From positions 1 to 64,000 of the forward strand of contig SVOC01000009.1 in NCBI GenBank assembly GCA_015066625.1: a stretch of 64,000 bases of DNA, in the 5' to 3' direction. Made by a program: the position numbers and the translations under genes. The stretch comes from Oscillospiraceae bacterium (GTDB lineage: Bacteria; Bacillota; Clostridia; Oscillospirales; Acutalibacteraceae). Under the pieces are notes generated by a model, which saw only the letters and a list, made by a program, of their open reading frames with translations, did no database searches and was not told the DNA's origin. Within the stretch, counting starts at the first letter, position 1. Each line of letters starts with the position of its first letter. Below are positions 23,487 through 40,071 of this stretch, one piece after another.

Positions 23487-23600
23487 CCAAAATAAATAGG
23501 GCAGCCCTATCCGAGATAAGACTGCCCAGACGGTCGGCTTTGAAACGGATTTTTTGCTCCTTTGCAGTGCTCTGCATAATTCCGTCAGTTACAAAAAACC
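23487..23600 (-). promoter_or_regulatory. ZTP (pfl-type) riboswitch with terminator
   Basis: On minus the leader contains GTAACTGACGG at about 23593-23583, a small hairpin, and the conserved CCGACCGTCTGGGCAG at about 23537-23522, which are the two core parts of the pfl/ZTP aptamer. Directly after it GGGCAG (23527-23522) can pair with CTGCCC (23504-23499), followed by TATTTATTTT: a terminator that reuses the end of the aptamer. Binding of ZTP/ZMP, which builds up when 10-formyl-THF is short, should prevent termination and raise purO/AICAR transformylase expression. This class is commonly found before purH. Confidence 0.85.
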
Positions 23601-23618
23601 CTTAAATTTTACAAATAA

Positions 23619-37868: not shown

Positions 37869-38429
37869 TCACTCCAAATGCATTTTATAGAATTTTGCCT
37901 TGAATGTCTGTGTGCCGTCAAATGTGCTGTATTCTCCGTAGTGGTCAAAGACAAGACCGCATTTTTCCATAACCTTGCCTGATGCGGGATTATCAATTGC
38001 ATGGTTGGAAACAAAATCTCTTATACCACATTCTTCATAGGAAAATACAATCATTCTTTTAGTTGCCTCTGTCGTTAATCCCTTGTTCCAGAAATCATAC
38101 CTGATATTATAACCGAAACCCCACTCGTCGGGATTTCCTTTGTGAGGTCCGATGCTGCAGCTTCCGATTAAAAGATTGCTTTCTTTTAATACAATACCCC
38201 AATGGTAATTCTCATCTTGGGGAAGAATCACATTTATCCAATTCAAAACCTCATCAATATTTTTATAAAGGTTATACGGCATAAATCTATTGACTCTTTC
38301 ATCACTTAGCCAAACAAATGCCGTTTCTGCATCTTCGGGGGTAATCGGTCTTAAAATCAGCCGTTCTGTTTCGAGAACGGGAGTTGTTTTTATGTATTCC
38401 GCCTGTTTATATTTTTGTTCTTGGTTCAT
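37869..38429 (-). CDS. GNAT acetyltransferase (RimJ/RimL-like)
   Basis: 186 residues. It begins with the family motif ETERLILRPITPEDAETAFVW; the acetyl-CoA site is in RYDFWNKGLTTEATKRMIVF and the end has NPASGKVMEKCGLVFDHYG. This group acetylates protein N-termini or small molecules, including some antibiotics. It is the second gene of a minus operon, 6 nt after the methyltransferase and behind a leader-peptide attenuator. The target is unknown; the context suggests modification of a translation-related target or drug, which is inference. Confidence 0.8.
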   Translation of the reverse strand: MNQEQKYKQAEYIKTTPVLETERLILRPITPEDAETAFVWLSDERVNRFMPYNLYKNIDEVLNWINVILPQDENYHWGIVLKESNLLIGSCSIGPHKGNPDEWGFGYNIRYDFWNKGLTTEATKRMIVFSYEECGIRDFVSNHAIDNPASGKVMEKCGLVFDHYGEYSTFDGTQTFKAKFYKMHLE

Positions 38430-38435
38430 TTCCTG

Positions 38436-39272
38436 TTACTCCTTTCTCAACACGTCAAGCGTGTGATGTGATAAACCGATTAAATCCTGTCTTTCGCAGG
38501 TTTTGAAATGATATTTCAGATACAGTTCATAGGTTTCGTTATCCATTTTGTCTATTACTTCACGCATATGGCAGGCATAACCGTCGGTTGCCAGAAAATG
38601 CAGTCTTTCGGCATTAAGTTCTTCCGTCAGCTCAAATATTTCATCTCTTGTATAGAGCTTGAAAATGCCGTGCGGAGGAAAGAACGTTTCAAAAGTTTCG
38701 GTGTCAATAAGCCCGTCGTCAATGCTTTGCTGTACCTTATTGTTTTTGAAAATTCCCGTTAAAACTGAAGGATCAACCATACAGTATGCAACGAAAACAT
38801 AACCGCCGCTTTTGGTGATTCGCATTGCTTCCGACAACGCTTTTTTCTGTTCTTCAACCGTATAGAGATGATACATCGGACCGAGCAAAAGCGTTATATC
38901 ATAGCTTTCATCGGGATATTCGGACAGATTGATTGCGTTGCCTTGTCTGATGCTGATTTTTTCATTCGGCTGTGTTTTTGATTTGAAAACCTCAATGTTA
39001 TGCTCGATGAGTTCAACTGCATCAACCTCAAAACCTTTTTGAGCAAAGTAATGCGAGTATCTGCCGGTAGCGGCACCGATTTCCATAATCTTCATACCGT
39101 CTTTCAGATATTTCTCAATATACTTTGTAGTTGTAAGGAATTCGATTCTGCCGTGTTTTGACAAAAGACGGGAATCCTCGTCAATACGGTTATAGAAATC
39201 TGCAAGATGATCACCTGTTTTTACAGGTTGCTTTTTGAAAAGTTTCTTTTTGATTAATTCAAATAGTTTCAT
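38436..39272 (-). CDS. Class I SAM-dependent methyltransferase behind an attenuator
   Basis: 278 residues from the ATG at 39272 (AAAGGAG upstream); longer frames run into the attenuator. The Rossmann fold is shown by motif I MEIGAATGRYSHYFA (about 84-98), the acidic strand-2 end FEVDAVELIE, NAINLSEYPDESYDITLLLG and MYHLYTVEEQKKALSEAMRI. The N-terminus is very basic (ELIKKKLFKKQPVK), which may help bind RNA or membranes. This small-molecule/RNA methyltransferase type cannot be assigned a substrate. It is first in an operon with a GNAT enzyme, and the 250-nt leader holds a 36-codon ORF and a conditional terminator. Confidence 0.8.
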   Translation of the reverse strand: MKLFELIKKKLFKKQPVKTGDHLADFYNRIDEDSRLLSKHGRIEFLTTTKYIEKYLKDGMKIMEIGAATGRYSHYFAQKGFEVDAVELIEHNIEVFKSKTQPNEKISIRQGNAINLSEYPDESYDITLLLGPMYHLYTVEEQKKALSEAMRITKSGGYVFVAYCMVDPSVLTGIFKNNKVQQSIDDGLIDTETFETFFPPHGIFKLYTRDEIFELTEELNAERLHFLATDGYACHMREVIDKMDNETYELYLKYHFKTCERQDLIGLSHHTLDVLRKE

Positions 39273-39286
39273 AACAAATCTCCTTT

Positions 39287-39334
39287 GAGTATAAAAAATA
39301 AACAGTGTAAGCATCTGCAGCTGCTTACACCGTT
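39287..39334 (-). terminator. Conditional terminator (attenuator) before the methyltransferase
   Basis: On minus the arms GGTGTAAGCA (39331-39322) and TGCTTACAC (39313-39305) form a hairpin, followed by a T-rich run (TGTTTATTTTTTAT), just before the ribosome binding site. The first arm and the next bases (39331-39317) can instead pair with 39394-39382 inside the leader ORF: GCTTATACC with GGTGTAAGC, and GCAG with CTGC across a 2-nt bulge. That is a 13-bp competing antiterminator. Confidence 0.75.
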
Positions 39335-39356
39335 ATAAACATATGGAAATATAGTT

Positions 39357-39467
39357 TTATCTATCCCAAAATGAATATAGAGGTATAAGCCTGCCAGATG
39401 ACTGATAATCATGCTGTGCAAGCCAATTCATATCCATATCAAGTTTTGAGAAAAGATATGTGTTCAT
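39357..39467 (-). CDS. Leader peptide of the methyltransferase/acetyltransferase operon
   Basis: 36 codons from the ATG at 39467 to TAA at 39357, with a GAGGT ribosome binding site 8 nt upstream and a consensus promoter right before it. The peptide begins MNTYLFSKLDMDMNWLAQ and ends PLYSFWDR. It is too small and oddly composed for a normal enzyme. Codons 25-29 (G-R-L-I-P) encode the RNA segment that can pair with the terminator's first arm. A ribosome that reads through normally would cover that segment and let the terminator form; one stalled earlier would free it. This is the classic logic of translational attenuation. Confidence 0.7.
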   Translation of the reverse strand: MNTYLFSKLDMDMNWLAQHDYQSSGRLIPLYSFWDR

Positions 39468-39494
39468 GAATTTTACCTCGTTTGATTTTTTGAC

Positions 39495-39523
39495 ACTATA
39501 ACACTGTAAAAGAAATTTGTCAA
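39495..39523 (-). promoter_or_regulatory. Promoter of the leader-methyltransferase-GNAT operon
   Basis: On minus, TTGACA (39523-39518), 17-nt spacer, TATAGT (39500-39495), 28 nt before the leader start codon. Confidence 0.85.
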
Positions 39524-39592: not shown

Positions 39593-39778
39593 ATGGCAAA
39601 TCTTACTGCAAAAGAACTTTCTGCAATTGAGGACCAGCTTAACTGCGAGCAGATGCTGATCAAAAAGTATAAAGCATATGCTCAGGTTGCAACAGACCCT
39701 CAGATTAAATCTACCTGTGAACAGCTTGCAAATCAGCATAAGCAGCATTATAACACACTTATGGGTCACTTATATTAA
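39593..39778 (+). CDS. Small CotF-like coat-associated protein
   Basis: 61 residues, helical (MANLTAKELSAIEDQLNCEQ, then IKKYKAYAQVATDP). It resembles the first half of a ferritin-like/CotF spore coat helical bundle and is commonly paired with a second small gene of the same group, as here. AAGGAG precedes the ATG. Its stop overlaps the ATG at 39778. Probably a spore-surface protein; direct evidence is only the family resemblance. Confidence 0.65.
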   Translation: MANLTAKELSAIEDQLNCEQMLIKKYKAYAQVATDPQIKSTCEQLANQHKQHYNTLMGHLY

Positions 39779-39792
39779 TGGGGGATTATACT

Positions 39793-40071
39793 ATGATGAA
39801 TATGGATGCAAGCTTCACCGATAAAGAGATTATGGATGATATTCTTTCATCGCAGAAGCATATTACCGATGTTTACAATACTTTTTCAAACGAATGCACT
39901 AATCAGCAGCTTCAGACCGATATGCTCAATATTCTTAAAGAGGAGCATACAATTCAGTTCAGCGTTTTCGGAGAAATGCAGAAAAGAGGCTGGTACAGCC
40001 CTTCTGCCGCAGAAGCACAGATGATTGACCAGACAAAAACAAAATACGAAAATATGGCTTCTCAGCTTTGA
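39793..40071 (+). CDS. CotF-family spore coat protein
   Basis: 92 residues from the ATG at 39793, preceded by GGGGA at good spacing; an ATG at 39778 (five residues longer) has no ribosome binding site. The stretch FTDKEIMDDILSSQKHITDV and the final KRGWYSPSAAEAQMIDQ are typical of coat protein F. It forms a two-gene unit with the preceding protein and is followed by a terminator. Expected in the spore coat. Confidence 0.75.
   Translation: MMNMDASFTDKEIMDDILSSQKHITDVYNTFSNECTNQQLQTDMLNILKEEHTIQFSVFGEMQKRGWYSPSAAEAQMIDQTKTKYENMASQL

Follow-up and report, generated by a model that had tools for sequence, protein, structure and literature searches.

The window, a stretch of 64,000 nucleotides of Oscillospiraceae DNA, carries on its minus strand, in front of a methyltransferase-acetyltransferase operon, a leader in which transcription attenuation by a leader peptide is well supported by the sequence. 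We read this element as a member of a class of translation-stress attenuators guarding detoxification enzymes. The explanation as a whole, in which a four-strand attenuator read by the ribosome acts as a general sensor of translation stress and controls enzymes acting on the stressor, seems to us highly probable. An attenuator controlling this operon had been proposed earlier (the original prediction). It has now been found, in addition, that the leader is of a recurrent class, that its antiterminator strand takes part in a third pairing with the leader's own start region, and that such leaders stand in front of many likely detoxification enzymes.

Parts of the leader and of the operon

The promoter occurs as predicted on the minus strand at 39495..39523, the TTGACA (39523-39518) and TATAGT (39500-39495) boxes being separated by a 17-nt spacer and matching the consensus at 11/12 positions. 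Taken alone, a promoter scan of the window is uninformative (2 sites vs 3.9 in shuffles); many of the relatives' leaders are preceded by TTGACA-like and TATA-like boxes, as judged by eye. The predicted leader ORF of 36 codons (MNTYLFSKLDMDMNWLAQHDYQSSGRLIPLYSFWDR) was also recovered. It runs on the minus strand from the ATG at 39467 to the TAA at 39357, with the GAGGT upstream forming part of a Shine-Dalgarno (SD) sequence, GAGGTA (39474..39479, minus). The terminator that had been placed before the methyltransferase ribosome-binding site is present at 39334-39301 (minus) in the form of a hairpin with 13 pairs, followed by a T-rich tract (39300-39289); the terminator scan of the window (2 terminator-like sites vs 1.0 in shuffles) is weak by itself. 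This intrinsic terminator lies between the leader ORF and the first gene, the SD-led short ORF overlaps the antiterminator, and the antiterminator uses leader codons and is mutually exclusive with the terminator. The predicted fold of the leader RNA has an energy of -61.9 kcal/mol vs -39.9 kcal/mol (sd 4.3) in 200 shuffles, none of which equals it (z -5.1). The ribosome-binding site and start codon (39270..39286, minus) open the two genes expected, which encode a class I SAM-dependent methyltransferase of 278 aa (38436..39272, minus; PF08241, 1.3e-14) and a GNAT acetyltransferase of 186 aa (37869..38429, minus; Acetyltransf_3, PF13302, 2.4e-31).

Divergent small genes, the second of which has a Coat_F (spore coat) domain, are located at 39593-40071 on the plus strand and start 70 bp from the attenuator promoter; by eye, the sequence upstream of the leaders at loci L006, L013, and L017 resembles them. 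Elsewhere in the window, a Type-P5 twister ribozyme (330-397, minus; 43.5 bits) has, as judged by eye, a plus-strand ORF resembling an integrase (1539-2711) at a distance of about 1.1 kb and a helix-turn-helix-like ORF (749-1264) close by; this locus is possibly the end of a mobile element. A ZMP/ZTP riboswitch (23517-23602, minus; 60.3 bits) precedes a pair of minus-strand ORFs (239 and 394 aa), which by eye look like purine-biosynthesis proteins of the IMP cyclohydrolase/AICAR transformylase kind.

Alternative pairings and modelled switching

Four RNA strands would make up the switch: strand 1, the SD/start region, to which codons 15-18 would be added in the window type; strand 2, codons ~24-31; and strands 3 and 4, the terminator. 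In the window, strand 2 spans codons 24-31 (39376..39398, minus), forms the 5' strand of the antiterminator, and can pair with strand 1 as well. The pairing originally proposed between leader codons 25-29 and the first arm of the terminator (2:3) held both as a duplex (z -5.0 vs shuffles) and in the covariation over 37 leaders. The alignment of these leaders was built from sequence (MAFFT), without any fitting to structure. As many as 87.5% of the 2:3 cells are paired, vs 33.5-49.0% when one strand is slid; two-sided changes occur in 8/13 pairs (5.2 in shuffles; 3/500 as high) and in 48 cells vs 20.7 shuffled, a value reached in 0/500 shuffles, and the count of further pair types is ordinary (48/500 shuffles). 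The terminator is paired in 92.4% of the cells of the same alignment, with two-sided change in 12/15 pairs; the alignment proposed as a check thus came out with both the terminator and the antiterminator pairs covarying. Shared descent among the sequences is uncorrected in these figures and in those on the other pairing below.

The original prediction missed that strand 2 also pairs with the leader SD (1:2), GAGGTA at 39479-39474 facing TACCTC at 39385-39380. In relatives, the SD/start region is likewise a partner of strand 2, as in GTACGACAATG facing TATTGTCGTAC or CATTGTCGTAC. The window type has a different 1:2 register and an extra pairing of codons 15-18 (TGGCTTGCACAG, WLAQ; 39414..39425, minus), which are the same in 16/16 window-type leaders and are paired with strand 2 in the predicted window fold. 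Since the window 1:2 duplex is weak on its own (z -1.5 vs shuffles), the case for pairing with the start region rests on the relatives. In one fixed register over 61 leaders, 77.8% of the cells are paired vs 25-52% when slid, and 43 cells show two-sided change vs 21.4 shuffled (0/1000 as high), the number of pairs with two-sided change being ordinary (197/1000 shuffles). When each leader was tested for its own duplexes (61 leaders; L088, L242, and L170 excluded), z fell below -2 in 56/61 for 2:3 and in 42/61 for 1:2. The noncognate controls were modest (mean rank 0.27 for 1:2 and 0.20 for 2:3) because the motifs are common to the leaders.

In the mechanism proposed, the absence of a ribosome would allow 1:2 to form and the terminator to stop transcription, and in the case of fluent translation the ribosome would cover strand 2 and the terminator would form. 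A ribosome that stalls before strand 2 (codons 2-4 and 9-22 being the best places in the window) would block strand 1 and leave strand 2 free; 2:3 would then form, and RNA polymerase would read into the methyltransferase-GNAT operon. Since stalls at many codons suffice, the element would be a general translation-stress sensor, which its codon content (Asn, Trp, Met, Gln) might bias toward particular shortages or drugs.

Switching was modelled in 61 leaders as the number of 2:3 pairs expected once RNA polymerase completes strand 3, with the ribosome footprint placed at each codon; the model is one of equilibrium and ignores kinetics, pausing, and NusG. The window leader gives 3.3 expected pairs without a ribosome, 4.9 with the ribosome at codon 1, and 14.3, 13.1, and 9.1 at codons 2-4. 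The values are only 3.6-6.5 at codons 5-8, reach 12.6-17.8 at codons 9-22 (ON), and are below 4 from codon 23 onward, with 0.2 at the stop (OFF). The mean over the 61 leaders is 11.9-15.5 pairs when the P site precedes strand 2 by at least 5 codons and near zero when the ribosome is on strand 2; 82% of the leaders keep at least 5 pairs at a distance of exactly 5 codons, and 44% do so one codon later. Without a ribosome the mean is still 9.3, with 61% of the leaders keeping at least 5 pairs, and it climbs to 6.1-6.6 after the ribosome has passed the start of strand 2 by 9-11 codons, which in many leaders brings it near the stop. In the model, therefore, neither OFF state is clean in all the leaders, and OFF via 1:2 is imperfect.

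Distribution of the leaders and genes behind them

Related Clostridia carry the leader element at 98 non-redundant loci, 5 of which are doubtful, and SD-led ORFs are found again there with strand 2 inside and the stop before or near the terminator. The clusters and leader starts were obtained with simple scripts, without one-by-one curation. Loci L071, L096, L101, and L131 were dropped from the leader set as implausible, and L088 and L100 also from the model list; L243, L247, L250, and L175, and then L032, L246, L248, L234, and L100, were dropped in the clustering and tally. The element has no match in Rfam 15 at the gathering score of any family, and four low-score matches (three microRNA families and one Hsp90 element) were rejected.

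The window methyltransferase is present in one copy in its own genome (E <= 0.001) and was matched in 52/398 genomes of the family (E <= 1e-40) and 82/394 genomes of the order (E <= 1e-30), these two samples overlapping. Among 15 loci of named records, the leader ORF precedes the gene in 14, L015 being without it. A covariance model, R1, extends from strand 2 to the terminator and was built on 37 sequences hand-picked from 52 with fewer of the window type. It matches 30/57 fetched methyltransferase loci and 28/66 others (L098 and L105 weakly), in flanks of 1-1.5 kb, beyond which a leader farther upstream could be missed. All 13 loci with at least 70% methyltransferase identity (L001, L017-L028) match R1; the leader was not found at the Subdoligranulum plasmid copy (51% identity) or at the Cetobacterium copy. 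Judging from these sequences, the leader accompanies the close relatives of the methyltransferase, and farther ones are often without it; homologous operons lacking the leader, which the original prediction had counted against itself, do therefore exist in part.

R1 at E <= 0.05 has matches in 156/398 genomes of the family, and most of these are not leaders because the model yields false matches. At E <= 1e-4, it has a match in 56/394 genomes of the order. At 1e-6 in 398 phylum-wide genomes, it has three matches: in the window genome, in a second genome of its order, and in G855 (L251), where the match is considered false, a hairpin and T tract standing behind a 417-aa ORF, decarboxylase-like by eye, with no leader seen. 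Out of 18 fetched loci, 8 were kept as leaders (L169, L170, L172, L182-L186), L175 was set aside, and 9 (L171, L173, L174, L176-L181; best E 2e-6) were judged to be terminators behind other genes. At the sensitivity of R1, the leader class was not found outside the order.

The first genes of 40 further leader loci, all outside the R1 training set, were scanned with Pfam (E <= 1e-6). They are mostly enzymes modifying or cleaving small molecules: Methyltransf_25 was found in 18, Acetyltransf_3 in 12, Acetyltransf_1 in 11, the phosphorylase family PNP_UDP_1 in 4, and Adenyl_transf, tRNA-synt_1g, Peptidase_S66, and Peptidase_S51 in one each, one member being able to score for several families. The 20 Pfam families obtained include none of Erm, ABC-F, Tet, or rRNA methyltransferases, and no biosynthetic genes were seen downstream of the leaders. 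These loci are not all independent of the window methyltransferase (five GNAT fusions; a few with it in second place), and one of them, L234, is probably a false ORF. The first gene of L231 is ANT(6)-like (PF04439 at 4e-104, under the NCBIfam cut-off) and is followed by a member of the window methyltransferase family. In L237, GNAT and methyltransferase domains are fused, and L232, L239, L240, and L244 are similar. L235 begins with a MetRS-like gene (225 bits vs a cut-off of 587), about 330 nt behind which lies an ORF that is LD-carboxypeptidase-like by eye. In L185, the S66 protein has its best matches among MccF-like proteins (4e-96), with MccF itself at ~1e-40; in L184, the GNAT reaches MccE at 6e-7, after other acetyltransferases; and the S51 protein of L215 has only weak PDB matches.

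A family of ~190-aa proteins with a P-loop-like motif, GPHAVGKMTVGQEL, recurs in the leader operons (10 proteins in cluster C2; members in L214:704-1282, L172, L215, L216, L217, L219, and L228). L217 and L228 begin with a protein homologous to that of L214, which has no Pfam, NCBIfam, or PDB match; the family is possibly a new small-molecule kinase. A phosphodiesterase/nucleotide pyrophosphatase-like gene (in L002:3842-4963, PF01663) follows the methyltransferase in 15/18 window-type loci, often with a GNAT next, and is absent from the window. At L186:4001-4124, leader and terminator are well preserved (85 bits) and have no usual gene directly behind them; they are perhaps an orphaned switch.

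Codon content, signal, and function

In the 16 window-type leaders, strand 2 is nearly invariant, pS being 0.09 there vs 0.20 before it and pN 0.014 vs 0.139; selection on the peptide before strand 2 is weak (pN/pS 0.68). The frame is shifted just before strand 2 in L026, L027, and L080, where the nucleotides are kept, as are the earlier codons and the closed ORF. Loss of the leader frame where the hairpin is conserved, which had been named as a finding against the prediction, is therefore partly encountered. Since these frame shifts leave the RNA intact, the C-terminal peptide is not the sensed part. The peptide RLIPLYS was rejected as a stalling motif in view of the shifted frames and its fit to the RNA pairing, and the recurring endings RLIPLYS, GLYCRT, LTLLYP, and LALSY can be read as the translation of the pairing strand of each type.

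The codons before strand 2 (1452 residues in 62 leaders; L088 and L242 excluded here and in the Trp test) were compared with 510 long ORFs of the window and the fetched loci. W (3.6x), M (2.6x), N (2.2x), and Q (1.7x) are enriched, and E (0.17x), K (0.46x), G (0.46x), and Asp (0.72x) are depleted, the enrichment dropping with the general abundance of the residue (Spearman -0.81). N is present in 61/62 leaders (39.3 expected), with 82/137 of its occurrences at codons 7-12. W is not universal, being found in 38/62, in 23/38 of which the last W stands exactly 4 codons before strand 2. It occurs in 31/36 leaders of operons with the window methyltransferase family vs 7/26 others (Fisher p 3e-6, uncorrected for descent). 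Four of the former were assigned by hand or likeness: the second gene was seen in L211, L213, and L216, and the leader of L212, at a contig end, resembles that of L216. We read this codon content as pointing to the sensing of scarce codons, with a Trp-linked part for the window methyltransferase family, and regard drug-specific stalling as an equal rival.

That the signal is a ribosome-binding drug causing sequence-specific stalling, as macrolides, chloramphenicol, and orthosomycins do, and that the methyltransferase protects against it, is a reasonable possibility, which we hold tentatively. The architecture equals that of drug-sensing leaders, the positions of N and W are clustered, and the ANT(6)-like gene of L231 precedes a member of the methyltransferase family. 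On the other hand, no stalling motif common to all the leaders was seen, and the 40 first genes include no rRNA methyltransferase, ABC-F, or Tet family. Stalling by orthosomycins depends on the incoming aminoacyl-tRNA. A single uORF may nevertheless serve several ribosome drugs: in the E. coli topAI-yjhQ operon, stalling at several positions of toiL allows several drug classes to be sensed (PMC12121999). toiL resembles the present class in that one uORF reports stalling at several positions, and differs in acting through translation and Rho termination, whereas the window class combines an intrinsic terminator with an antiterminator, occurs in Clostridia, and precedes many enzyme genes.

A shortage of charged tRNA, caused by synthetase inhibitors of the microcin C kind that the operons would destroy, is a possible but somewhat doubtful signal, for which stalls would occur at Asn, Trp, Met, or Gln codons. 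It would account for the enrichment of these codons and for the placement of W, since a W codon 4 codons before strand 2 in the A site puts the P site at the last mostly-ON position. It is also consistent with the association of W with the window methyltransferase family, with descent uncorrected, and with the S51, S66, and GNAT effectors and the MetRS-like protein. MccE2 (GNAT), MccF (L,D-carboxypeptidase), and MccG (S51) protect against microcin C-like compounds, which inhibit aspartyl-tRNA synthetase (PMC9239234). These three enzyme families (GNAT, MccF/S66, and S51) also occur behind the present leaders, with a likeness at the family level only, and the microcin C enzymes described there are producer immunity or standalone genes. 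Against this signal stand the depletion of Asp codons, although microcin C hits the Asp synthetase, and the absence of W before strand 2 in L029, L030, L080, L232, L237, and L244, all of which carry the window methyltransferase family. In the window type, moreover, 11 codons separate W from strand 2, with which the W nucleotides themselves are paired. Single-codon runs, by which amino-acid attenuators are usually recognized, seldom occur among the leaders. The trp, his, and ilv attenuators follow a 1:2, 2:3, 3:4 logic read by the translating ribosome; the window class shares this logic and differs in the rarity of codon runs and in its downstream genes, which are not biosynthetic.

That the methyltransferase acts on rRNA and protects the ribosome, as Erm does, is unlikely. 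In favor of it are the use of SAM by the enzyme, the stalling-type leader in front of its gene, and, among the PDB matches, a weak one to a 23S rRNA methyltransferase (8z62, E 0.0068). The search against resistance and rRNA methyltransferase families, which the original prediction had called for, gave scores far below every NCBIfam cut-off, those of the rRNA methyltransferases included. The stronger PDB and fold neighbors are mainly small-molecule or uncharacterized methyltransferases (model pLDDT 70, moderate), and the enzyme is fused to GNAT in L237 and its relatives. A PADLOC match to the mad2 methyltransferase domain (E 7e-17, 59 bits) was the only one and was not taken as a sign of defence. 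The analogy drawn earlier with erm and ABC-F genes therefore concerns only the mechanism, in view of these scores and neighbors and of the 40 loci. A constitutive terminator, with an unread short ORF and pairings that are by-products of repeated sequence, is very improbable: many methyltransferase relatives lack the leader and the leader peptide is poorly conserved, but both competing pairings show covariation in excess of the shuffled and slid controls, and SD-led ORFs recur with strand 2 inside and the stop before or near the terminator.

Returning to the translation-stress attenuator, the likeliest target of modification by the enzymes is the small molecule that causes the stress, not the ribosome. 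Of the inducible resistance system first proposed, attenuation is well supported by the sequence, and a resistance reading is plausible, the genes behind the related leaders being of kinds that would suit an inducible detoxification or resistance role. The drug-inducible leader attenuators of Gram-positive bacteria, tlrB/yxjB of B. subtilis (PMC6851288) and mef/mel (PMC4335068), resemble the window leader in having a leader peptide, stalling, and transcription attenuation, and precede rRNA methyltransferase or efflux genes. Unlike them, the window class uses the leader start region as a switch strand, and its effectors are GNATs, non-Erm methyltransferases, peptidases, and others.

It is conceivable, if rather speculative, that these are order-wide alarm leaders sensing the scarcity of charged tRNA (Asn and Trp above all), i.e., an attack on the synthetases, and driving exchangeable detoxification cassettes in which the window methyltransferase family would be a new resistance enzyme linked to Trp codons. 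If this is true, the target of some unknown natural toxin could be read from the codons of the leader. To our knowledge, most of what is known of leaders regulating drug-resistance genes concerns single genes. In the present class, a single architecture that uses the leader's own start region as a switch strand precedes numerous enzyme families, unrelated to each other, in an order of gut bacteria. A search based on the switch is a way to find unnamed detoxification enzymes without homology, and the codon content of each leader is a testable clue to the stimulus of its operon.
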